IMG/VR virus record: IMGVR_UViG_3300033571_015955
Coordinates: 1 to 21,047 of that record
DNA from: a virus
DNA: 21,047 bases
Direction: 5' to 3' (one strand)
The first letter of the stretch is position 1; every line of letters begins with the position of its first letter. Both the position numbers and the translations under genes were made by a program. Positions 591 through 18,476 of this stretch are shown here, in pieces. The notes below the pieces were generated by a model that worked only from the letters and a program-made list of their open reading frames with translations, was not told where the DNA came from and did not search any database.

Positions 591-779
591 ATGGCAATAG
601 GAACATACACAGCATTAGATAGTAATTATATAGTATTTGATATTATAGAAATGGATATATTAGATGATATTCCAGCTCCATATGAAAATATAGTTTATGT
701 AAGAGTAGGAGAAGAACCATATCCCCCAATACCTACAATAGGTCAAATGTGGGATGGAAACACTAACACATTTATATAA
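591..779 (+). CDS. Small tail-fibre-associated protein, 62 aa
   Basis: A 62-residue acidic protein lying between two LamG genes. Its stop (TAA 777-779) shares one base with the ATG of the next gene (779), which suggests translational coupling. The C-terminal half contains VRVGEEPYPP followed by GQMWDGNTNTF. This resembles the short 'PP..IG..WDG..F' segment at the ends of many phage tail-fibre and fibre-assembly proteins. There is no signal peptide or membrane segment. It could be a small fibre subunit, a fibre chaperone, or the remnant of a longer fibre gene. The reading frame is well supported by its spacing and overlap; the function is not established. Confidence 0.6.
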   Translation: MAIGTYTALDSNYIVFDIIEMDILDDIPAPYENIVYVRVGEEPYPPIPTIGQMWDGNTNTFI

Positions 780-1555
780 TGGGACAAGAAGGATTACAAT
801 CATATTTAGGGAACGCAACAAGCACATTGTATTTAGGCAACAATCCTGTTGTACTAAATCCATTTAGTGATGCTGTAATACCAACTACAACAACTACAAC
901 TACAAGCACAACTACAACAGCTGCACCAGCTTATGTAACAAATGGATTGATTATCTATATGGATAGTACAGTAGCTGCATCATATCCTGGTAGTGGAACT
1001 AATTTATTTAACTTAGTATCTGGACAAGATTATACTGGTAGTTTGGAAAATGGTGTAACATATAGTGGTGGATATTTAATAACTGCTAAAGCTAGTTCAC
1101 AATTTATTCAAATAAATGCACCAAACTACACATCTCAAAACTATACCGTAATGGGAGCTACTAAATATAATAGTGGAAGTGGTAATGGTAGAATGATGGC
1201 AGGTAATGGTAACAACTGGTTATTAGGTCATTGGCAAAACTCAACAATTAATTATTATGCAGAAGGAACAATAGAAGGAATAGCTGGAGGACCAAATGAT
1301 GAGAATTGGAGAATATATGCTGGTACTGGAAATATAGCTGGTGATAGTTATGGATTCTATGTTAATGGTACATTATCAACAAGTAATAATGGTGGAGCTG
1401 CAGGACCTAATGGATTAAGAGTAGGTTCGCAAGGTGGTGGAGGTGAATGGTCAGATGGACAATTTGCTTTCATTATGCTATACAATAGAGTACTTAGTGA
1501 TGCAGAAGTATTACAAAACTACAATGCATTAAAATCAAAAGTAGGATTAACATAA
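779..1555 (+). CDS. LamG-domain adhesin with N-terminal anchor and threonine linker
   Basis: A 258-residue protein in three parts. Residues 1-30 contain a duplicated short motif (SYLGN at 8-12 and LYLGN at 17-21) that recurs in the downstream gene and may anchor the protein to the tail. Residues 36-50 form a threonine linker ending in alanine and proline (TTTTAAP). Residues 51-258 form a LamG-like jelly roll that ends in YNRVLSDAEVLQNYNALK, a closing helix typical of phage LamG proteins. It is probably a host-glycan-binding adhesin. The same kind of threonine linker dominates the large tail protein at 11335-13425. The start is set by the one-base TAATG overlap with the upstream gene. The LamG call is strong; the anchor role is inferred. 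Confidence 0.8.
   Translation: MGQEGLQSYLGNATSTLYLGNNPVVLNPFSDAVIPTTTTTTTSTTTTAAPAYVTNGLIIYMDSTVAASYPGSGTNLFNLVSGQDYTGSLENGVTYSGGYLITAKASSQFIQINAPNYTSQNYTVMGATKYNSGSGNGRMMAGNGNNWLLGHWQNSTINYYAEGTIEGIAGGPNDENWRIYAGTGNIAGDSYGFYVNGTLSTSNNGGAAGPNGLRVGSQGGGGEWSDGQFAFIMLYNRVLSDAEVLQNYNALKSKVGLT
884..928 (+). repeat. Threonine-codon (ACN) microsatellite encoding a linker
   Basis: A run of ACA/ACT codons, with one AGC, encodes residues 36-50 of the LamG adhesin. The base composition and coded product match the much longer linkers at 11851-13233. Confidence 0.75.
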
Positions 1556-7990: not shown

Positions 7991-9211
7991 ATGGCTATTA
8001 CTATTACACAACAACCAGCAACCGCATCATTAGCACAATCGCCGATGATATTTACAGTGAATGAGACTACTAATGTAAAGTATAGCTCATCATTTCAATA
8101 TGTTGCTGACTTATACTATTGGACTGGTTCGTTAAATCAATCAGGTTCAGTACCAAAATATACGCTAGTAAAATACCCTAATGATAACTTAGTTGGTATT
8201 TTTGATGTGAGCAGAATAGTAAATTCAACGCTTACTGATTTAGCTATACAAAACACATCGAATGTAAAATACTATGCATGTGATTTTTATTGGCAATATC
8301 AAAGTGGAAGTACATATGTTACTGGTTCGCATACTAAATCTAATTCTTTTAAGGCATTGGATGGCTATGGTATATTTCCTGAGCCAATTGGACAACAAAT
8401 ACCTTCTAAATCACTTTATTGGCCTATAATGACTGATGGGCCAAATGAGCAGGAATATTTTAACTTCAATTTAGGAACTATGGGTGTATATATTGGAAGT
8501 ACAGGTGGTGTAATACCCACTAATGTATTATATACAACTTATGCACCTGGAACTAATACTATATTAGCTTCATCATCTTTTTCATTACCAGTAACATCGG
8601 TAAGTTCATCAGCACAAATAACCCAAATACCAATTGGACCATTAGAGAGTGGATTTCCATTAGGACCAACGCCAAGTATTGATTTTACTATTCAAGCAAG
8701 AAATTCTACAACACAATTGGGTAATCCTATTAGATTTAACTTTACATGTAAGCAAAAATATCCTAACGTTAGATTAAAATGGAAAAATAGATATGGGCAG
8801 TTTGATTACTTTAACTTTTATATGGTTAATAGACAATCTTTCCAAACAATGACAAGAACATATCAACCACAACTAGGAAGCTGGCAAGGTCAAACTCTTT
8901 CATACAATGATTATGATTCATCCACATTGAATTATATAAGCGATTCTAAGCAAACTCTTACAGTTAATACAAATTGGATTTCTGAAGACTATAATGATAT
9001 ACTAAAGCAATTGCTTGTAAGCGATGAGATATATTGGTATTATGAAGAAGACCAAAACGAAGAATCATCGGTATCGCCAGAGACTGTAGATGGATTAAAG
9101 CCAATTACTATAAAAACTAACTCCATATTATTCAAAACTGGAGTAAATGATAATCTAATTCAATATCAATTTGATTTTGATTTTGGACAAGCATATAAAT
9201 TGTTATTATAA
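7991..9211 (+). CDS. Tail-tip/baseplate structural protein
   Basis: A 406-residue, beta-rich protein beginning MAITITQQPATASLAQSPMI, an opening ('ITQQP...A.SPM.F.V') I associate with large tail proteins of Bacteroidetes phages. It contains many aromatic residues and paired strands but no catalytic motif or transmembrane helix. The region near residues 240-300 (IRFNFTCKQKYPNVRLKWKN) reads as a beta domain. RYGQFDYFNFYMVNRQSF follows, a conserved-looking block. The stop overlaps the ATG of the hub-like gene by one base (TAATG at 9209-9213). It probably forms a ring at the distal end of the tail (distal tail protein or baseplate wedge). The exact role is unknown. Confidence 0.6.
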   Translation: MAITITQQPATASLAQSPMIFTVNETTNVKYSSSFQYVADLYYWTGSLNQSGSVPKYTLVKYPNDNLVGIFDVSRIVNSTLTDLAIQNTSNVKYYACDFYWQYQSGSTYVTGSHTKSNSFKALDGYGIFPEPIGQQIPSKSLYWPIMTDGPNEQEYFNFNLGTMGVYIGSTGGVIPTNVLYTTYAPGTNTILASSSFSLPVTSVSSSAQITQIPIGPLESGFPLGPTPSIDFTIQARNSTTQLGNPIRFNFTCKQKYPNVRLKWKNRYGQFDYFNFYMVNRQSFQTMTRTYQPQLGSWQGQTLSYNDYDSSTLNYISDSKQTLTVNTNWISEDYNDILKQLLVSDEIYWYYEEDQNEESSVSPETVDGLKPITIKTNSILFKTGVNDNLIQYQFDFDFGQAYKLLL

Positions 9212-11331
9212 TGGGATTAACTAGCACTCAATCGTATCCATTTAAGTTAATAGCTGGTGGAGTACAATTGGATTTATTTAAGGATGAGGATGTATTCTTA
9301 TCAGATAATGTCACAGGTCTATTTGATATAGGTGTGTTGCCATCTGATTTCACTAGGCAGATAACTGTACCTGGTACTAAAAAGAACAATGCTTTCTTTG
9401 AGCATGTTTATGATATATCAGTTTATTCTCCTGACTTATTTGCAACCAATCAAAAAATTGAATGCTATTTCGATTTTGATGGCATCTATCTTTCGCAAGG
9501 GTATTTACAGTTAAATAAAGTAAATGTTTTAGCTAATAAATTTATTGATTCATATGAAATTAGCATTTATGGTGCTATCTCATCATTTGCAATCGATATT
9601 AATAGAAACTTCCTAACGGATTTGACTTCTTCATTAGCTCAATACAATCATACTGCCTCAATAACTAATATAACATCAAGTTGGCAAAACGGATTATTCA
9701 ATGGAACTATTGTATATCCAATGGCAGAGTATGGGCAGAAGCTAGTATATAATGCATTAGGAAATGAATTTGGAATAGATGATACATCAGGCAGCTTAAC
9801 AGTGCAGGATTATAAGCCATCTATTAGAGTAAAAGCAGTTTGGGATGCAATATTTGACACTTATGGATATACATATTCAGGTTCATTTATGGAAGAGCCA
9901 TTCTTAAACAATGTGTATATGGTTCTTAATAATCAATTAAGGTATCCTATTGTAAATGGGGCTTCAATTGAAGATTTTGGTACATTTAGAATGGCACCAA
10001 TAAGCGGAGCAACTGATACGCAATTACTATTAACTCCAATTGCTTTACCTTGGTTCAGCATTACATCAAACCCATCATCATCATTAAGTAATAATTTAGA
10101 ATATACTCTTTCCGCTAATAGTAGATTAAGAGGCGAAATTAAAACAGAAATTAAACTAGTAGCTGATACAATATTTACAGGTAGTGCAGTTCCGCAATTT
10201 GACTTAGTAATAAAGACAACTGGTGGAACAACAGTATCTACAATACCTTTAACTGAATTCAATAACTTTTTTATAAGAGTTAGAAATGGGAATATAACGC
10301 AGGGATTAAATACAGCTACACAAACATATACTCTATCGCAGGAGTTTGTAAGTGATTTCATAAACACAGGAACATATAAGTTCTTCATTCAATATAGTAA
10401 ATTGGGTGGGAATGGTTTACTTGATGTTTATTTAGACCCTAATGGTTCGCTTAGTTCTTATTTAGCAGTAACAAAAGTAATGAATGCTGCTGATGGTAAG
10501 ACTATCGATATAGGCAAGAACATGCCATTTGGAACTAATGGAATTAGACAAATAGATTTTATAAAAGGATTACAAAAGAAGTTCAATCTAATCATATACC
10601 CATCTAAAACCAAACGTAATGAATTCATCGTTGAGACATTTAACAATTGGTATAAAGCAGGTCAGGTTAAGAACTTTGACCAATATATTAATTTAGATAA
10701 GGCATTAGAAGTAATTCCAGCTAATAACCTTGCAGTAAATGAGCTAAACTTTGGAGATACATTAGACCAAGACTATGTATCGCAGCAATTTAGTAAGTTA
10801 GCTAATAGACCTTTTGGAAAGCAATTCTATGTAGATACGCAAAATTACTTTTCGCAAGGTAAGTTTGAAGTAGAAACTACATTTGCTTCATCACCATTAG
10901 TTCAGATTACTGGAACTGGTATATCAGGCTCATCTGCATCTCCAATAAGTAATAACACAGTAAGAGTAAGTGATTCAATTACAACTACTGATTATTTGGA
11001 TTGTAATGGTACGCTTTATCAATATCAGGAGAATACTACGGAATGTGCTCTATTAAATCAATTCGGCTCTCCAGCTATTAACTATGGTACACCGATAAGT
11101 GTAGTTGTTAGATATAATAGAAGTGGTGTATGTAATGGCTACACTCCGCAGGATATTCTAATAACAATTCCATACGGAGCAACAACAGGTACTAGAACAT
11201 ATCTATCATCTTATTATGAGGATTGTGGAGCTGGATGCTCACCTCAATCAGAAACAATAAATTGCGTTGTATCAGTTAGTGGGCAGGCTGGTATTACATT
11301 AAATGGAAGCTCACCAATAACATCGTGTTAA
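9211..11331 (+). CDS. Tail hub-like protein with cysteine-rich C-terminal domain
   Basis: A 706-residue protein. Residues 1-90 contain YPFKLIAGGVQLDLFKDED, then TGLFDIGVLPSDFTRQITVP and a GTKKNNAFFEHVYDIS block, hallmarks of a large Bacteroidetes-phage tail-tip family. Residues about 440-560 hold IDFIKGLQKKFNLIIYPSKT and a FNNWYKAGQVKNFDQYINL segment, typical of baseplate-hub proteins of that family. Residues 567-706 (nt 10909-11331) differ. They are Ser/Thr/Gly-rich with seven cysteines (598, 612, 641, 672, 676, 685, 706) and look like an added extracellular-type beta domain. Only three bases separate the stop from the next ATG, and the next protein starts with what appears to be the rest of the same hub family. 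The likely role is the central tail-tip hub. No lysozyme or peptidase motif is seen. Confidence 0.65.
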   Translation: MGLTSTQSYPFKLIAGGVQLDLFKDEDVFLSDNVTGLFDIGVLPSDFTRQITVPGTKKNNAFFEHVYDISVYSPDLFATNQKIECYFDFDGIYLSQGYLQLNKVNVLANKFIDSYEISIYGAISSFAIDINRNFLTDLTSSLAQYNHTASITNITSSWQNGLFNGTIVYPMAEYGQKLVYNALGNEFGIDDTSGSLTVQDYKPSIRVKAVWDAIFDTYGYTYSGSFMEEPFLNNVYMVLNNQLRYPIVNGASIEDFGTFRMAPISGATDTQLLLTPIALPWFSITSNPSSSLSNNLEYTLSANSRLRGEIKTEIKLVADTIFTGSAVPQFDLVIKTTGGTTVSTIPLTEFNNFFIRVRNGNITQGLNTATQTYTLSQEFVSDFINTGTYKFFIQYSKLGGNGLLDVYLDPNGSLSSYLAVTKVMNAADGKTIDIGKNMPFGTNGIRQIDFIKGLQKKFNLIIYPSKTKRNEFIVETFNNWYKAGQVKNFDQYINLDKALEVIPANNLAVNELNFGDTLDQDYVSQQFSKLANRPFGKQFYVDTQNYFSQGKFEVETTFASSPLVQITGTGISGSSASPISNNTVRVSDSITTTDYLDCNGTLYQYQENTTECALLNQFGSPAINYGTPISVVVRYNRSGVCNGYTPQDILITIPYGATTGTRTYLSSYYEDCGAGCSPQSETINCVVSVSGQAGITLNGSSPITSC

Positions 11332-11334
11332 AAT

Positions 11335-13425
11335 ATGGCTACAAATAAAATATCAATACCAACATTTATAAGTAGTGAGGCTTATGCTCCAGCAAGAGTA
11401 TTGCCTCATATCTATTTTTACAATGGATTAAAAGATTGTGAAAGATATTACATACAATCTGGTAGCGGATTTGTAGCTAGAACACAATTTCCATATTTTG
11501 ACAACTATTCAGGTGAGACTACAACAACATCATCCCTGTCATTACTTTTTTATAATGAACAAGCGGCTTATGGAACTGCTCCATCTCAATCTTTGTATTC
11601 TCAATATTGGGAAAAGTATGTTGAGCTATTGTACAATCCTAGAACACGTTTAATTAACGCACAAGCGATTATCCCATTAGCAGATTACTTCGATATGGAG
11701 TTGAATGATATCGTTCAATTTAGAGGGAACTATTACCATTTAAGAGCCATCAATGATTACAATCTTTCTAACGGAGAATGTAGTTTACAATTGCTTGGAC
11801 CAATATTAAATGATGCATTACAATTTGTAGCACCACTTCCTGCACCAGTTAGTACTACAACAAGTACAACTACAACAAGTACAACTACAACAATAGCACC
11901 TACAACTACTACAATTGCTCCTACAACAACAACTGCAGCACCTACTACTTCAACTACAACAATAGGAGGACAAACAACAACTACATTAGCACCAACTACA
12001 ACAACTACAACAACAACTCTTTGTCCTTGTCAAACTGGTGTAACTATTGATGTTACAACGCCAGGTAATGTATCTTGGTTAGATTGCTATGATGTATCAC
12101 ATGAAGAATACTTTATATTTGGAAGTAATGTAATACCTGGCTGTATTAAAGGCCAAACTATATCATTCCGTACTGCTGAAGGTGGGGTAACAAGCTTTGG
12201 TACATGTTGTTCAGTTCCTGCAACTACTACAACTTTAGCACCAACTACTACAACTACTACTTTATGTCCTTGCCAAACAGGAGTTACTATTAATATAACA
12301 ACGCCTGGTAATGTAACATATTTAGATTGTTACAATACTCCACAAAGTGAGTACTACGCATTCGGAAGTAATGTAATAGCTGGTTGTATTAAAGGTCAAA
12401 CTATATCATTTAGTGATGCAGAAGGTAGTGTAACAAGCTTTGGAGAATGTTGTTCAGTTCCTGCAACTACAACAACAACTACTACTACAACTGCAGCACC
12501 AACGACTACAACTACAACGTTATGTCCTTGCCAAACTGGTGTGACAATTGATATTACAACTCCTGGTAATGTAACATATTTGGATTGTAATGATATATCA
12601 TACAATGAATACTATGCATTTGGAAGTAATGTAATACCTGGTTGTATTAAAGGACAAACTATATCCTTTAGTGATGCTGAAGGTAGTGTAACAAGCTTTG
12701 GTACTTGTTGTACACCAACTACAACTACAACAACTGCAGCTCCAACAACAACTACTACAACTGCAGCTGCAACTACAACACAGGCACCTACAACAACAAC
12801 TGCAGCACCTACAACAACAACACAAGCGCCTACAACAACAACGGAGGCACCACCACCACCTACAACTACTACTACACAAGCGCCAACTACAACTACAACA
12901 ACGGCACCACCACCGCCTGTATATTATTATAATGCTACAAGATGTCATGATGGTGCAAGTTTTATTGTATATGGTGGAACAAATTATTATGGAACTGGTA
13001 CTGTTGTGATATCAGGTGGAACAACATATTGCTATACAATTCAGAATGAAGTAGGAGCTCAGGCTTACGATGATACTGTTGGTTCTACAGTAGGTAGTTG
13101 CGCTGATGGTGCTTGTTATGTTGTACCAACAACAACTACAACGCAGGCTCCAACAACAACTACAACAGCTGCACCTGCAACTACTACAACGCAGGCACCA
13201 ACTACAACAACTACAACAGCTGCACCTCCTGCTTGTAGAACATATGAGATAATAGGATACAATGATAATGAATATGTAGATGGTGTTTATACCAATTGTT
13301 CAGGTTTCCCTGATAGCTTCTCTTTCTTTGGTGGAGCAGGTCCGGTTGGTACGATATGTGCTCAAATATCAACTGTATATATTACAACTGGTAATGGAGG
13401 TGCAACTGATATTGGGGCATGTTAA
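11335..13425 (+). CDS. Tail-tip protein with mucin-like threonine linkers and cysteine modules
   Basis: A 696-residue mosaic. Residues 1-172 are a tail-tip domain (LPHIYFYNG, SLYSQYWEKYVELLYNPRTR, FRGNYYHLRAINDY) that looks like the C-terminal part of the hub family upstream. Next come five modules on threonine/alanine/proline linkers. The linkers are residues 173-228, 296-309, 377-395, 462-528 and 599-633. Modules 1-3 (229-295, 310-376, 396-461) are near-copies starting LCPCQTGVTI and ending in SFG(T/E)CC. Module 4 (529-598) has CHDGASFIVYGG...CADGAC. Module 5 (634-696) ends GATDIGAC and is a diverged relative of 1-3. Paired cysteines suggest disulphides outside the cell. It is probably a flexible, exposed tail-tip fibre for adhesion. 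The linkers resemble mucin and could be O-glycosylated by the enzymes encoded next. N-terminal role fairly likely; module function unknown. Confidence 0.7.
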   Translation: MATNKISIPTFISSEAYAPARVLPHIYFYNGLKDCERYYIQSGSGFVARTQFPYFDNYSGETTTTSSLSLLFYNEQAAYGTAPSQSLYSQYWEKYVELLYNPRTRLINAQAIIPLADYFDMELNDIVQFRGNYYHLRAINDYNLSNGECSLQLLGPILNDALQFVAPLPAPVSTTTSTTTTSTTTTIAPTTTTIAPTTTTAAPTTSTTTIGGQTTTTLAPTTTTTTTTLCPCQTGVTIDVTTPGNVSWLDCYDVSHEEYFIFGSNVIPGCIKGQTISFRTAEGGVTSFGTCCSVPATTTTLAPTTTTTTLCPCQTGVTINITTPGNVTYLDCYNTPQSEYYAFGSNVIAGCIKGQTISFSDAEGSVTSFGECCSVPATTTTTTTTTAAPTTTTTTLCPCQTGVTIDITTPGNVTYLDCNDISYNEYYAFGSNVIPGCIKGQTISFSDAEGSVTSFGTCCTPTTTTTTAAPTTTTTTAAATTTQAPTTTTAAPTTTTQAPTTTTEAPPPPTTTTTQAPTTTTTTAPPPPVYYYNATRCHDGASFIVYGGTNYYGTGTVVISGGTTYCYTIQNEVGAQAYDDTVGSTVGSCADGACYVVPTTTTTQAPTTTTTAAPATTTTQAPTTTTTTAAPPACRTYEIIGYNDNEYVDGVYTNCSGFPDSFSFFGGAGPVGTICAQISTVYITTGNGGATDIGAC
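11851..13233 (+). repeat. ACN-codon microsatellite linkers
   Basis: Long ACA/ACT/ACC/ACG runs interrupted by GCA/GCT-CCA (Ala-Pro) occur at 11851-12018, 12220-12261, 12463-12519, 12718-12918 and 13129-13233. They encode the threonine linkers. The repetition makes alternate frames and the reverse strand appear open here. It also makes the locus prone to slippage, recombination and assembly collapse. Confidence 0.85.
12019..12717 (+). repeat. Three tandem coding repeats of about 200 bp
   Basis: Copies at 12019-12219 (201 bp), 12262-12462 (201 bp) and 12520-12717 (198 bp) are separated by threonine-codon linkers of 42 and 57 bp. The translated copies share LCPCQTGVTI, TTPGNV, LDC, FGSNVI, GCIKGQTISF and TSFG. 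Copies 2 and 3 are the closest pair (both NVTYLDC and FSDAEGSVTSFG). Similarity also holds at the DNA level, indicating fairly recent duplication or continuing homogenisation. Confidence 0.9.
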
Positions 13426-13456
13426 TATAAAATTACTAAAATGAAAACTAATAGTT

Positions 13457-14434
13457 ATGAAGAAATTAAGATTTATAAGTGCACAACCTGCTACTAAATA
13501 CTACGCATGGCAAGTAGAAGTAATGTTAAACAACTTTGTGCAAATGGGTATAAGCCTAAATGACATAGATGTTGTTTGTTGGAAAGAAAACGATGAAGTT
13601 CCACAGGAATGGAGTAACTTAGCTAACAACTATGCAGCTAGATTCTTTTTTTATAAAGATACTAGAGAAACAAAGCATTACATATCCTCAATAAGACCCA
13701 ATATTCTTAAACAACACTTTAAGGAGCATTCTTATTTAACAAGCGAAACAATTTTTTATCACGATTCTGATATAATCTTTACCAAGCCTATAAGCGAATG
13801 GATAACATGGGACATGGTTGAAGATGATAACTGGTATGGCTCTGATACAAGATGGTATATAGGTCATTCATACATTCAGTCAAAAGGAGAGGATGTATTG
13901 GATAAGATGTGCGAAATAATGGAGATGGATAAGCAGATTATTGAAGATAATGAATTAAATGCAATAGGAGCTCAATACATTATGAAAGGAATTGACTCTG
14001 CATTTTGGGATAGAGTAGAAAGAGATTCAGAAAGATTATTCAAAGATATTACTGAATTAAATAATCATAAGATTGCATTAGATAGAGCACACACTCATTC
14101 ACCTGATTCACCACCAAAAACTCCATATCACGAGCTACAAATATGGTGTGCTGATATGTGGGCTGTATTATGGGGTGGTTGGAGATTAGGTCATAAAACA
14201 ATATGTTCACCAAATATGGAATTTAGCTGGGCAACATCATCAGAGCATGAATACAATAGAATGAATATCATGCATAATGCTGGAGTTGTTGACAATACAA
14301 GCGGTTACTTTTACAAAGCAAATTGGATGAATGATTATCCCTACAATAGAAATTTAGAAATTAAAAGAGATAGTGCAAGTTGGCATTATTATGATTGGAT
14401 AAAAAAGACAGAAATTAAAACAGTATTATTATGA
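13457..14434 (+). CDS. DxD glycosyltransferase, GT-A fold
   Basis: A 325-residue cytosolic protein without signal peptide or membrane helix. The nucleotide-sugar/metal-binding DxD lies in IFYHDSDIIFTKP (D103, D105). Downstream are GAQYIMKGIDSAFW (171-184), WCADMWAVLWGGWRLGHKT (230-248) and HNAGV (273-277). This order (DxD; GAQ; W..EMWA/ADMWA; HNAG) is reminiscent of the GT8-like and hydroxyproline/serine O-glycosyltransferase (GT95/GT96-like) superfamily, a resemblance recalled from memory. It is the first gene of a four-gene overlapping cassette starting 31 bp after the threonine-bead tail gene, and its stop overlaps the next start by 4 bp (ATGA). Donor and acceptor are unknown. Glycosylation of virion proteins or of host surface components are the main options. 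Confidence 0.75.
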   Translation: MKKLRFISAQPATKYYAWQVEVMLNNFVQMGISLNDIDVVCWKENDEVPQEWSNLANNYAARFFFYKDTRETKHYISSIRPNILKQHFKEHSYLTSETIFYHDSDIIFTKPISEWITWDMVEDDNWYGSDTRWYIGHSYIQSKGEDVLDKMCEIMEMDKQIIEDNELNAIGAQYIMKGIDSAFWDRVERDSERLFKDITELNNHKIALDRAHTHSPDSPPKTPYHELQIWCADMWAVLWGGWRLGHKTICSPNMEFSWATSSEHEYNRMNIMHNAGVVDNTSGYFYKANWMNDYPYNRNLEIKRDSASWHYYDWIKKTEIKTVLL

Positions 14435-14997
14435 AGCCAGAAACAGGTAGAAATAACTCATTCCTAAAAGTTATTGAAATATTAAAGGAAACATATTCAG
14501 AGCCAATTACAATAGTTGAGACTGGATGTATAAGAAACACAACCGATGAAAGCAAATTTGGTGATGGCTGGAGTACGCTTAATTGGGAATATTATGCAAA
14601 GGATACGGATTCAAAAGTATATGTTGTAGATATAAACCAACATCACATTAATAAAAGTATGGAGATAGTGCCACAATCAGAGCATGTAGAATATACATTA
14701 TCTGATAGCGTTGAGTACTTAAAGAACTTTGACAAGAAGATAGATGTACTATTTGTAGATTCATTTGATTATTGTGGAGATGCTGAAAATATTAGAGCAT
14801 GCCATAACCATTCATTAAACGAAATACTTGCAGCTTGGGATAAATTGGAAGATAACTGTTTTGTTTTAGTTGATGATGTATTCAATGATAAGTGGGCAGG
14901 TAAAGGAGAGTTATCCATACCATATATGCTTGAGAATGGATTCCAATTAGAATACTTTATAGATTCACAGGTACTTCTGAAGAGATGGAAAAAATAA
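14431..14997 (+). CDS. SAM-dependent methyltransferase-like protein, class I
   Basis: A 188-residue protein with a Rossmann-type layout. Strand 1 and motif I are TIVETGCIRN (E30, G32), where the usual GxGxG is reduced to E-T-G-C as in Methyltransf_24-type proteins. Motif II is VYVVDIN (D67, expected to bind the ribose of SAM), and strand 4 is IDVLFVDSFDY (D110). Strand 5 is CFVLVDDVF (D148, D149). Methyltransferases of this size often accompany glycosyltransferases and O-methylate sugars, which would cap or mask a glycan. It overlaps the upstream glycosyltransferase by 4 bp and the downstream one by 13 bp. The fold is likely; activity and substrate are inferred. Confidence 0.65.
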   Translation: MKPETGRNNSFLKVIEILKETYSEPITIVETGCIRNTTDESKFGDGWSTLNWEYYAKDTDSKVYVVDINQHHINKSMEIVPQSEHVEYTLSDSVEYLKNFDKKIDVLFVDSFDYCGDAENIRACHNHSLNEILAAWDKLEDNCFVLVDDVFNDKWAGKGELSIPYMLENGFQLEYFIDSQVLLKRWKK

Positions 14998-15638
14998 TAC
15001 ATCAAATATGGGTTGGACCTTATAATCCACCTGAAAGAGATAAACAATTTGCTGATAGAATTAAAGAAGCACATCCTAACTTTGAATATCAATATTGGGA
15101 TAATAGCATATTGAATGAGCTACCATCTGAATTAAACGAAATAGTGCATAGATTTGCTGAAAACCAAAAGTGGGTCAATATAGCTGATATGCTAAGATAC
15201 TATGTAGTAAACAAATATGGTGGATTATATATCGATATGGATTACGAATTAAAGAATCCACTTGATGAGCTTAATTTAGAAAGATATGATGGCTTCATTC
15301 CCATGCATTTTAATGTTGGTGAGACAATATGCAATTCAATGTTTGGCTTTAAGAAGAATCATCCAATTATAAATTATGTATGTCAGCAAGTTCCAATAAT
15401 ACCAGTGCATGATGATTGGGTTGGACCTCACTTCTTTGGACGTAATATAAAACACTTTTTAGGATTGCAGGATAGCGATATCGATGTTACAGTTGATAGA
15501 ATGTTATGTACAATGAATATAAAGACCATGCATTCCAGAGGTGAGTTCAAGCAAAGATACTTGCATCATCATTACTCTTATACATGGCATCCATTAAATC
15601 AGGATAAATTAACAATTAATAAAGACTTTAACCTATGA
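14985..15638 (+). CDS. GT32-type glycosyltransferase (OCH1/capsular sugar-transferase-like)
   Basis: A 217-residue enzyme of the Gly_transf_sug (GT32) family. It begins KIIHQIWVG, the standard GT32 opening. The donor site follows in NIADMLRYYVVNKYGGLYIDMD, with D68/R71 and the DxD at D84-D86, and a histidine-rich LHHHYSYTWH near the end is the usual 'HH...SW' metal/acceptor motif. All key residues are present, so it should be active. GT32 enzymes transfer hexoses from nucleotide sugars. The start at 14985 overlaps the methyltransferase gene by 13 bp. Its own stop overlaps the next ATG (ATGA at 15635). It probably extends the sugar laid down by one of its neighbours; acceptor unknown. Confidence 0.85.
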   Translation: MEKIIHQIWVGPYNPPERDKQFADRIKEAHPNFEYQYWDNSILNELPSELNEIVHRFAENQKWVNIADMLRYYVVNKYGGLYIDMDYELKNPLDELNLERYDGFIPMHFNVGETICNSMFGFKKNHPIINYVCQQVPIIPVHDDWVGPHFFGRNIKHFLGLQDSDIDVTVDRMLCTMNIKTMHSRGEFKQRYLHHHYSYTWHPLNQDKLTINKDFNL

Positions 15639-16429
15639 AAAAAGTAAGTTTCGTTTGCACAACATATAGAAGATTCCATTGCGTAAGAAGAATATTAGCA
15701 CAATTCAACGCTCAGACATATCCAAACAAAGAGCTGATTATATTCAATACTGATACCGAGCATCCTTATACTATGGATGAGATTCCTTCAAATGTAAAAA
15801 TTATAAACAATGGAAATAACTATAACGATAATACACCCTACACAAATAGAGGAGATATTTGTAGAGATGCCGTTAGTCACTGTACTGGAGCTTATTTTAT
15901 GCTAGCAGATGATGATGATATCTATCTACCATGGCATATTCAACAAGCCGTAGAAGGTGTAGAAGAGATTGGACAAGATGCTTGGAAGCCAAAGAGAAGT
16001 CTATTCGCATCCGGCAATGGAATTGAGTTTGCACAAAATACTATGGAGGCATCAATCATTGTAAAGATGGATAGAATAAGAGAGATAGGTTTTAGAAATG
16101 ATATGACAGGATATGAAGGATTGAGCTGGTATACTGTATTGAGAGATGAAAAGCAATTGGATGAATACAATGAAAATTATGTTCCATCCTACTGCTTCAA
16201 TTGGTCAGACCCATCAGAAGTTGCAGGGCACAAGCAAAGTGGAGATATTAATAATCCAAACAACTTTGACAATCACAAAGATTGCTCCACAGACTTCGCA
16301 TTGTTACCGCTAACACCTCTAAACTATATGGAACTATGGAATGTATATAAACCATATTTTGAGTGGCTTAAATCAAAGGAATCAGAGTTGAACGAAGCCT
16401 ACTATCAAAGGTATTGTTCCACTATATAA
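15635..16429 (+). CDS. GT2 family glycosyltransferase
   Basis: A 264-residue GT-A enzyme. The N-terminal KVSFVCTTYRR is the GT2 nucleotide-binding opening. ELIIFNTDTEHPY forms the second strand, and CTGAYFMLADDDDIYLP (acidic cluster D92-D95) is the metal-binding DxD equivalent. The downstream acceptor region has GYEGLSWYTVLRDEKQLDEY, with aromatic and acidic residues of the kind GT2 enzymes use around the catalytic base. There is no membrane helix, so it acts in the cytoplasm on soluble acceptors rather than as a membrane polymerase. It is the last gene of the overlapping sugar cassette and is followed by a 23-bp gap. Confidence 0.85.
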   Translation: MKKVSFVCTTYRRFHCVRRILAQFNAQTYPNKELIIFNTDTEHPYTMDEIPSNVKIINNGNNYNDNTPYTNRGDICRDAVSHCTGAYFMLADDDDIYLPWHIQQAVEGVEEIGQDAWKPKRSLFASGNGIEFAQNTMEASIIVKMDRIREIGFRNDMTGYEGLSWYTVLRDEKQLDEYNENYVPSYCFNWSDPSEVAGHKQSGDINNPNNFDNHKDCSTDFALLPLTPLNYMELWNVYKPYFEWLKSKESELNEAYYQRYCSTI

Positions 16430-16601: not shown

Positions 16602-18476
16602 ATGGCAGATAATACAAAAACCTACACAGCCATTATAGATGTTGAAGTTGAAGGTCAAAGTAATGTAAAGGATTTAGGCGATGAAGTTCAAGATACCCAA
16701 GAAAAGTTTGTATCTTTAAGAGGTCAAATCAGAGAAACAACTGTTGCTTTACAAAGATTAGAGACTGAAGGAAAGACAGCAACGAAAGAATTCCAAAACC
16801 TTAGAGCTAAATTAGATGAATTAAATGATGCGCAAGAGAGAGCTGCATTCAAAGCTGGACAATTTGATGACCAATTAGCTGCATTACCAGGTCCATTAGG
16901 GCAAGTTGGTGGAGCAATTAAGACATTTAACGAATCAGTCAATAAGTTTGGTAAAGGATTAACGGTAGGATTAGGTGTAATTGGATTGGTTATTACAGCT
17001 TTCTTTACAATGAAGAAGGCATTAGAGAGTACTGCTGAAGGTCAAGCAGTTCTAAATCGTATTACAACTGCATTTAATAAGATATTAGGACCTGTTTTAG
17101 CATTAGTTGAAACAGTTGCATTACCATTATTCGAAGGATTTGCTAACATATTAGTTAAAGTAGCCGATGGATTTGCATGGTTTGCAGAAAAGTTAGGAGT
17201 ATCACAACAAAAGATAAAGGAGGCATCATCAGGTACAAAGGATTTTGCAGCTGAACAAGAGAAATTATTAGAAAAACAAAAAGAAACAGCTGAAAAAGCA
17301 AAACAAGCTGCAGAGAAAGCCGCAGCTGATGCCAAAGCTAAAAGAGAAAAGGCGGCAGCAGATGCAAAAGCTGCAAGAGAAAAAGCAGCAGCTGAACAGT
17401 TAGAGTTTGAGAAACAACAAATTGCCGCTGCATTATCATTATTAGAGGGTAGAGAGAGAGAAATTGCGGAAGAGACTATTAGATATAATGAGCAAGCAAA
17501 CAAATACAGAAACAAAACAGCTGCTGAAAGAGAGTTGTTTGAGATGGCATATCGAAAGAAGATTGCAGATATCAATAAGAAGTATGATGATGAAGCAGCT
17601 CAGAAGACAAAGGAAAGATACGAAAAAGAACAAAAAGATTTAGATGAACAACTAAAAGCATTAGATTTATTCTATAAAAAGCAAGAAGATTTACAAAGAT
17701 ATGCAGATTTCTCAGCACTTCAGCAAGAATTAGAAACATTAGATGCTGCAAATGAAATTAGAGATGATGATTTTCAAGCTGACCAAGCCCGTTTAGAGTT
17801 AAAGTTCGTTAGGTTGCAACAACAAATGCAACTAGAATTGGATGCAACAAAAGGAATAGAAGATGAAGAAATCAAAAGATTGGAGATTCGTAAAAAGTAT
17901 GGTGACGAACTTTCAAAGACTGATAAAGAAATTACATTATCTAGAAAAGCTGAACTACAAGCTAGGGCTGATTTGGAAATGCAGTATGTTGGTATTGTTG
18001 GTCAAGCTGGTAGATTACTATCACAGGCTGCGGGAGATAATAAGACCTTAGCAATTGCTGGTATTCTATTAGAGCAGGCATCGGCAGTAGCATCAATTGC
18101 TATTAGTACACAAAAGAATGCAGCTAAGGCTGGATACTTTACACCAAAAGGTATTGCTGAATTAGTAGCAGGTGGTTTGGGTATTGCATCAGCTATCGTA
18201 GCAGCTAAAAAAGGAATTGACCAAATCAACCAAGTTAGAATACCTGGTGGTGGGGGTGGGGGAGGTTCAGCTGGAGCATCTAGTATACCTACACCATCGA
18301 TACCATCTATAAATGCACCAAGAGTTGAAACTGCAATATCAGCTTCACCCGGTACTCAAATAGCTGGTACATTAGCAGATGTAACTGGTAAACCAATAAA
18401 AGCATATGTTGTAAGTGGTGATGTATCATCGCAACAAGCATTAGATAGAAGAACAACTAAAGCAGCAACATTTTAA
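16602..18476 (+). CDS. Tail tape measure protein
   Basis: A 624-residue, helix-dominated protein that sets tail length and passes out of the tail during DNA injection. Residues 1-95 form an N-terminal coiled region. PGPLGQVGGAIK (96-107) precedes a hydrophobic helix (about 118-136) and a second hydrophobic stretch (161-194), candidates for membrane insertion. Residues 205-275 are an Ala/Lys/Glu-rich coiled coil with repeated AEKAAADAKAKREK units, and more coiled coil runs to about 460. A hydrophobic Ala/Gly segment, a glycine run and PTPSIPSINAP follow. The C-terminus IKAYVVSGDVSSQQALDRRT is the closing segment of Bacteroidetes-phage tape measures. At about 1.5 angstrom per residue the tail would be near 90-95 nm, a siphovirus-scale length. 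Confidence 0.85.
   Translation: MADNTKTYTAIIDVEVEGQSNVKDLGDEVQDTQEKFVSLRGQIRETTVALQRLETEGKTATKEFQNLRAKLDELNDAQERAAFKAGQFDDQLAALPGPLGQVGGAIKTFNESVNKFGKGLTVGLGVIGLVITAFFTMKKALESTAEGQAVLNRITTAFNKILGPVLALVETVALPLFEGFANILVKVADGFAWFAEKLGVSQQKIKEASSGTKDFAAEQEKLLEKQKETAEKAKQAAEKAAADAKAKREKAAADAKAAREKAAAEQLEFEKQQIAAALSLLEGREREIAEETIRYNEQANKYRNKTAAERELFEMAYRKKIADINKKYDDEAAQKTKERYEKEQKDLDEQLKALDLFYKKQEDLQRYADFSALQQELETLDAANEIRDDDFQADQARLELKFVRLQQQMQLELDATKGIEDEEIKRLEIRKKYGDELSKTDKEITLSRKAELQARADLEMQYVGIVGQAGRLLSQAAGDNKTLAIAGILLEQASAVASIAISTQKNAAKAGYFTPKGIAELVAGGLGIASAIVAAKKGIDQINQVRIPGGGGGGGSAGASSIPTPSIPSINAPRVETAISASPGTQIAGTLADVTGKPIKAYVVSGDVSSQQALDRRTTKAATF

Follow-up and report, generated by a model that had tools for sequence, protein, structure and literature searches.

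Virion glycosylation was reportedly described for the mycobacteriophages Che8, Corndog and Myrna by Freeman et al. in 2023. In bacteria, the general O-glycosylation system of the Bacteroidetes, the likely host phylum of the phage studied here, modifies exported proteins at a D-S/T-x sequon, and glycosylation of the SRRP adhesins is initiated by Gtf1/Gtf2. These adhesins of Gram-positive bacteria carry low-complexity runs of hydroxy residues, which are O-glycosylated in the cytoplasm by glycosyltransferases encoded next to them (PMC5207161). Two papers that cite the work of Freeman et al. report that Che8 and Corndog glycosylate their capsid and tail-tube subunits with enzymes of their own and that the modification affects antibody recognition (PMC12363180, PMC12619734), naming Che8 gp110 and Corndog gp38 as the enzymes (PMC12363180) and placing the virion glycans at C-termini (PMC12619734). 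Here we analyzed a 21,047-nt virus record from IMG/VR (IMGVR_UViG_3300033571_015955; as a whole, the window), which may be a fragment and in which a 696-aa tail protein with five threonine-rich linkers (11335..13425, + strand) is followed by a glycosyltransferase gene, designated GT1 (13457..14434, + strand), that belongs to the PHROGs family phrog_4417. The recurrent pairing of this GT-A family with Thr-rich virion proteins is real and more general than an earlier account made from the sequence of the window (the preliminary description) had claimed, and it is best explained as virion O-glycosylation. We consider it likely that phrog_4417 is a polypeptide O-glycosyltransferase dedicated to Thr-rich sequences and that a portable module built around it is spread over the tailed phages of three or more bacterial phyla.

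Counting as Thr-rich any stretch with 9 or more Thr in 15 residues, we found exactly the five linkers that the preliminary description had reported in the tail protein: linker 1 (aa 170-235, 11842..12039), linker 2 (aa 294-312, 12214..12270), linker 3 (aa 372-398, 12448..12528), linker 4 (aa 453-526, 12691..12912) and linker 5 (aa 596-631, 13120..13227), all on the + strand and predicted to be the sites of glycosylation. Together they comprise 222 residues, of which 123 are Thr, 30 Ala, 29 Pro and 6 Ser. Their Thr codons (ACA 68, ACT 49, ACG 6) are mixed much like those of the other window genes (175/123/20, plus 19 ACC), so the linkers are not built from one microsatellite unit. Among 2055 open reading frames (ORFs) of related loci, Thr was by far the commonest residue in runs of this kind (140 ORFs), followed by Gly (45 ORFs). 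The linkers contain no Asp and hence no D-S/T-x sequon, and host O-glycosylation therefore cannot use them through its sequon, as is required by the earlier argument that host machinery acts on exported proteins and a cytoplasmic virion protein would need phage-supplied enzymes. A second Thr-linker protein, absent from the preliminary description, is encoded at 779..1555 (+ strand), where a Thr run at aa 31-52, TTTTTTTSTTTTAAP, precedes a Laminin_G_3 (LamG) domain; this protein is a likely second substrate of the cassette.

Directly behind the tail protein lie four genes that overlap at three junctions, inside the tail module as the preliminary description had it; tail genes and a tape-measure-like gene flank them, and no signal peptide or membrane helix is visible in any of the four proteins (maximum 19-residue hydropathy 0.5-1.1), as it had also stated. 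The first of them, GT1 (325 aa), matched the phrog_4417 profile with an E-value of 4.7e-62 over positions 2-291 of 293, and nine homologues from isolates fell into the same family (E 2e-78 to 2e-156), which is annotated as 'unknown function' and is typified by protein 34 of Lactococcus prophage pi2. None of 34 GT1 members matched a glycosyltransferase family in Pfam, so that a GT8 profile match is lacking; the window GT1 had no match in NCBIfam, and a sequence search against the PDB returned nothing up to E 10. A Pfam match to Ribonuc_red_2_N (0.05), seen in 1 of the 34 members and below the cut-off, was dropped. An AlphaFold2 model built with the 34 relatives reached a predicted local distance difference test score (pLDDT) of 96.3 and a predicted template modelling score of 0.92, and it aligned with glycogenin (Z 14.6, root-mean-square deviation 3.5 over 229), with further matches to LgtC (Z 14.1), GlyE (Z 13.0), WbbM and UGGT. 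D103-x-D105 is invariant across the 34 sequences, as are H273-N274-A275-G276, F285 and K287, and we take this H-N-A-G...F-x-K arrangement to resemble the C-terminal metal/phosphate-binding motif of GT8 enzymes. That motif reads HxxGxxKPW in GT8. Because of the predicted fold together with the DxD and C-terminal motifs, GT1 would, by fold and motif only, be a GT8-like GT-A enzyme, which bears out the earlier assignment of a DxD glycosyltransferase to the first position of the cassette. GT1 resembles glycogenin and LgtC in fold, in the DxD motif and in having a C-terminal His/Gly/Lys motif of the same kind, but is only 6-12% identical to this type and has HNAG...FxK instead. Both the Thr-run pairing and the predicted GT-A fold are new for phrog_4417.

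Compared with the described systems, the locus is closest in logic to that of the SRRP adhesins, in which substrate-adjacent glycosyltransferases are likewise combined with variable extension enzymes and from which GlyE, one of the fold matches, derives. The SRRP system acts on a Ser-rich secreted adhesin and employs Gtf1/Gtf2, whereas here the residue is Thr (123 versus 6 Ser), the putative substrates are virion proteins and a single GT8-like enzyme would take the place of the Gtf1/Gtf2 initiator; neither a Gtf1/Gtf2 pair nor accessory Sec genes were seen among the window genes with Pfam, PHROGs and NCBIfam, in a record that may be a fragment. The Bacteroidetes system differs in its Asp-containing sequon and its exported substrates. 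The mycobacteriophages likewise use phage-encoded glycosyltransferases to modify capsid and tail-tube proteins, but with enzymes different from GT1: a tblastn search of 50,697 phage records with GT1 as the query, up to E 10, retrieved no Mycobacterium phage. The C-termini of the Che8 capsid and tail-tube proteins are not Thr-rich, whereas GT1-bearing Enterococcus phages have analogous C-terminal Thr tails. In the accessible part of the mycobacteriophage glycosylation literature we found no pairing of Thr runs with glycosyltransferases described, and literature searches on the combination of Thr-rich phage proteins and glycosyltransferases yielded nothing relevant.

Co-occurrence of the two elements, which the preliminary description had put forward as the observation on which it could fail, was examined on a single tail backbone. 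Relatives of the N-terminal domain of the tail protein and of its upstream neighbour were collected from IMG/VR, duplicates and incomplete loci were removed, and a Thr run was scored in the interval from the tail protein to the tape-measure gene. In the resulting 82 loci, run and GT1 were found together 44 times and were jointly absent 34 times, with two loci having the run only and two having GT1 only (Fisher p=2.8e-18), and the association recurred by gene position and in unrelated phages of other host phyla, as described below. The outcome named as refuting was thus not obtained. The tail protein had a median length of 457 aa with GT1 and 176 aa without it, usually consisting of the N-terminal domain alone (about 172-200 aa) in the latter case. 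Locus L008 provides an informative control, having a long C-terminal extension with neither GT1 nor a Thr run. Searching 13 GT1-less records over their whole length revealed a Thr run in none of them. In L017 and L025, GT1 stands behind a bare N-terminal domain, although a different virion-like protein of the L017 record carries a Thr run. In the N-terminal-domain tree, the Thr run changed 13 times and GT1 10 times; six supported independent pairs gave four changes in the same direction, none in the opposite direction and two without change, too few for significance by themselves.

Outside this backbone, 114 GT1 genes in IMG/VR loci were reduced to 61 representatives at 90% identity. A Thr run was present in the gene immediately upstream of GT1 in 50/60 cases (83%), two genes upstream in 24/57 and in the gene immediately downstream in 1/60 (2%). 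Annotated phage records with GT1 numbered 74, mainly phages of Lactobacillus, Enterococcus, Staphylococcus and Lactococcus. We examined 16 GT1-bearing annotated records (14 phages and two plasmids), and in 14 of them a Thr-rich run lay no more than 300 nt upstream of GT1, compared with 11 of 119 for the remaining gene starts of these loci; in a fifteenth, Chryseobacterium phage MA9V-3, the run lies deeper inside the gene upstream of GT1, and the sole record without a run was a Rhizosphaericola plasmid. The Thr-tailed protein preceding GT1 is the major tail protein (MTP) in Enterococcus phage phiFL1, a 'major structural protein' in Lactococcus phage 1706 and the major capsid protein (MCP) in an E. 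faecium phage-plasmid and in Lacticaseibacillus phage R3.3, and other Thr-tailed proteins hold this position in Lactobacillus phages Semele, 521B and LP65 and in MA9V-3. In phiFL1 the MTP is gp50, GT1 is gp51 and the MCP is gp45, and in 1706 the structural protein, orf13, ends in a Thr10 run ahead of GT1, orf14. The run-bearing protein, in these other phages usually the MTP or MCP, differs between phages, and GT1 tracks the Thr run and not one homologous gene. The unit of GT1 and a Thr-run virion protein is a recurrent one, present in Bacteroidota, Bacillota and Actinomycetota phages. A scan of genome contigs added five GT1 loci: three on contigs of Bacteroidota metagenome-assembled genomes (MAGs) with Thr-rich upstream genes, one on a deltaproteobacterial MAG contig and one with GT1 at the contig end. 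On the deltaproteobacterial contig (L229:3-3997), the gene immediately before a GT1 relative (39%) codes for PDAPAPESSQ repeats, which could be another low-complexity stretch open to O-glycosylation.

The phiFL-type phages indicate that one GT1 may serve several substrates. All three GT1-positive loci of this type in IMG/VR carry a Thr tail on the MCP as well as on the MTP, whereas their GT1-negative relatives have none on the MTP (0/11) or the MCP (0/10), a comparison that rests on few genomes (p=0.003 each). Linkage or co-insertion alone is inadequate here, because the MCP gene lies several genes away from GT1, and since both tails track the presence of GT1, the enzyme probably acts in trans. 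The window shows a comparable arrangement in a different form, with the Thr run of the LamG protein far from GT1. In other phages the tail lies in a shifted frame. For the FRAMESHIFTED tails of Enterococcus phages Planchet (L207:2740-2830) and nattely (L203:2720-2800), reading of the sequence indicates that the MCP frame stops and that the -1 frame runs into a Thr tail before GT1, with a CCCAAAA slippery heptamer at the Planchet MCP/Thr-tail junction. For the FRAMESHIFTED tails of Staphylococcus phage RQ1 (L198:3600-3931) and Arcanobacterium phage TPWB06 (L199:3640-3926), whose hosts belong to different phyla, the arrangement read from the sequence is the same in both: the MTP ends in ACT CCC TAA and the +1 frame leads into a long Thr tail. 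It is possible that a programmed frameshift yields a minority of Thr-tailed capsid subunits in Planchet and nattely, and a frameshift-extended phage MTP has a precedent in SPP1 (PMC8718954). If such tails are real, only a fraction of the subunits would carry a glycan. In Lactococcus prophage bIL285 (L202:2880-3010), NDKTTTTTTRHD follows in frame after the MCP stop and is itself followed by GT1; this stretch resembles a Thr tail that has been cut off or is reached by read-through, and the bIL285 MTP likewise ends in a Thr run.

We hold it very probable that GT1 acts in the cytoplasm and glycosylates the Thr runs borne by virion proteins, with the products of the other three cassette genes as optional elaborators. 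Several observations weigh against this explanation. A glycan is only predicted for every Thr-run protein considered here, the GT1 model points to a superfamily and not to a substrate, and the role of the 696-aa protein as a tail tip is putative. Tail loci L044 and L189 have a Thr run without GT1, although both records may be fragments; few changes on well-supported branches of the tail tree could be compared, and the phiFL-type genomes are few. Thr runs also exist independently of GT1. In a sample drawn from IMG/VR with the pattern TTTT-A-P-TTTTT, blind to GT1, the gene was present in 9/80 loci and 11/50 whole records, leaving 39/50 Thr-run viral records without it, as compared with 0/50 control records with acidic runs, which were shorter on average than the Thr-run records. 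The proposition that every Thr-run phage has GT1 was therefore rejected, and GT1 is a strong predictor of a Thr run, whereas the reverse holds in some lineages only. Some GT1-less Thr-run loci (L234-L313) have GT2 or GT29-family genes downstream, and other enzyme families may fill the role of GT1 in such phages. Conversely, some GT1 homologues (L092, L097, L103, L111 and others) lie in non-structural neighbourhoods with no run nearby, adjoining a metallophosphoesterase-like gene; several of their records carry runs elsewhere, and these homologues possibly have another acceptor or are trans-acting copies.

The same GT1-less Thr-run phages could be accommodated if the cassette altered host surface glycans, in receptor masking, superinfection exclusion or serotype conversion, and the Thr linkers were flexible spacers. 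Serotype-conversion glycosyltransferases of phages are well known, and bacterial GT32 and GT2 enzymes act on capsule and lipopolysaccharide. Such an activity nevertheless fails to predict the pairing of run and GT1 on one backbone, the placement of GT1 behind whichever structural gene bears the run, or the covariation of MCP and MTP tails with GT1 in phiFL-type phages, and neither a membrane-anchored partner nor a flippase was seen in the window; we regard it as improbable. More doubtful still is that run and GT1 are one inserted segment without functional coupling, the runs having grown by repeat expansion. The two do adjoin in most loci and the linkers are of low complexity, but the phiFL-type MCP tail covaries with GT1 from several genes away, the mixture of Thr codons agrees with that of the genome, the second frame is kept open through the Thr run in the shifted-frame cases, and runs on non-homologous proteins lie beside the same glycosyltransferase family. 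There is very little to recommend modification of the runs by other chemistry or by host enzymes, with GT1 acting elsewhere in the particle: the many Thr-run phages without GT1 would fit, whereas the Asp required by the Bacteroidetes sequon is missing from the linkers and GT1 has a predicted GT-A fold with DxD. Glycosylation of phage DNA, a known use of phage glycosyltransferases in phages with hydroxymethylated bases and one in terms of which these enzymes are commonly discussed (PMC12619734), is the least credible, since no base-hydroxymethylating gene was recognised in the window and the cassette lies in the tail module beside the Thr-run gene, to which it is tightly linked.

The remaining cassette genes are all on the + strand, and their earlier assignments were upheld by Pfam: an S-adenosylmethionine (SAM) methyltransferase of the Methyltransf_24 type (14431..14997; PF13578, 2.2e-9), a predicted glycan-modifying accessory, and two predicted accessory glycosyltransferases, one GT32-type with Gly_transf_sug and DxD (14985..15638; PF04488, 1.9e-12) and one of the GT2 family (15635..16429; PF00535, 1e-7). 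Matches per window family numbered 120 for GT1, 18 for GT2, six for GT32 and one for the methyltransferase. In support of glycosylation by GT1, glycan-type genes of varied kinds stand between it and the structural gene that follows, including GT2, GT32, GT25, GT6, GT4-type and FkbM genes as well as TylF and other methyltransferases, an epimerase and an APS-kinase-like gene, and most of the Gram-positive phages examined had no annotated glycan gene beside GT1. GT1 alone is constant, and the methyltransferase, GT32 and GT2 are additions that vary between loci. Most simply, the glycan would be started by GT1 and elaborated by the other enzymes lineage by lineage. The preliminary description, which had proposed a four-gene, phage-encoded cytoplasmic system for the linkers of a tail tip, is thus supported as to the phage-encoded cytoplasmic system, while its tail-tip specificity gives way to capsid and tail-tube proteins elsewhere and its four genes to one constant enzyme; the methylated glycans, linker stiffening, protease resistance and glycan mimicry that it also raised are hypothetical.

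Starting from the observed co-occurrence and gene order and from the modelled fold and active-site motif, we propose that GT1 represents an unrecognised phage family of GT-A glycosyltransferases and is a cytoplasmic enzyme, dependent on metal, which would put a sugar on threonines of low-complexity Thr runs during particle assembly. The reaction, the sugar and the linkage are conjectural in this model. In the window phage the targets would be the five linkers of the tail protein and probably also the LamG Thr run. After that, the sugar may be lengthened by the GT32 and GT2 enzymes and capped by the SAM methyltransferase, an order of action that, like the benefit, is presumed, and the outcome would be a bottle-brush linker that spaces distal Cys-rich modules apart. 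The core unit would be one GT1 gene plus at least one Thr-rich virion protein, with the run often on MCP or MTP elsewhere.

If this is correct, mucin-like glycosylation of capsids, tail tubes and tail fibres would be a common trait of virions that has been overlooked, and our results suggest that virions with a sugar coat occur far more often than has been assumed. Programmed frameshifting in some phages would then tune the number of glycan-bearing subunits. Under a rule of 'Thr run plus adjoining phrog_4417', glycosylation of virion proteins could be predicted, down to the subunit, for well-known phages of Enterococcus, Lactobacillus, Lactococcus and Staphylococcus and for many uncultured phages of Bacteroidota, with a bearing on recognition of phage particles, virion stability and adsorption. 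The family is also a possible source of a Thr-directed glycosylation enzyme functional in the bacterial cytoplasm.

The remainder of the tail protein consists of a conserved N-terminal domain (aa 1-172, 11335..11850, + strand; 50 relatives in IMG/VR), three near-identical Cys-rich modules, LCPCQTG...CC, from aa 229, 310 and 396 between the Thr linkers (12019..12711, + strand), and further C-terminal modules. The N-terminal domain had no family match, its predicted structure was unusable (pLDDT 46), and the whole protein had no match in phage records. Pfam matches to Penaeidin (7.5e-6) and DUF432 were dismissed as composition artefacts. The upstream tail protein (706 aa, 9211..11331, + strand) matched phrog_38559. 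In L189:10001-13072, a single ORF joins the homologue of this upstream protein to the N-terminal domain, suggesting that the two proteins cooperate in the tail, and this fusion and the gene position make the 696-aa protein a candidate tail tip.

The head genes of the window begin with a scaffold-like gene (2452), after which come a gene in the major-capsid position (3168), the portal gene (5230) and neck genes, followed by tail genes at 7991, 9211 and 11335, the four cassette genes (13457-16429), the tape-measure-like gene that closes the cassette (16602..18476, + strand; phrog_339, 5e-8) and an XkdF-type protease gene (18507). The closest isolates by portal are Nonlabens phages P12024S/L (34%), which, together with a GT1 match in a Chitinophagaceae MAG, points to a host in the Bacteroidota. 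Between the LamG gene and the head genes, 1565-2401 encodes a glycine-rich (GGGGG) tail-fibre-like protein, and a similar protein bears the Thr run of the L017 record.

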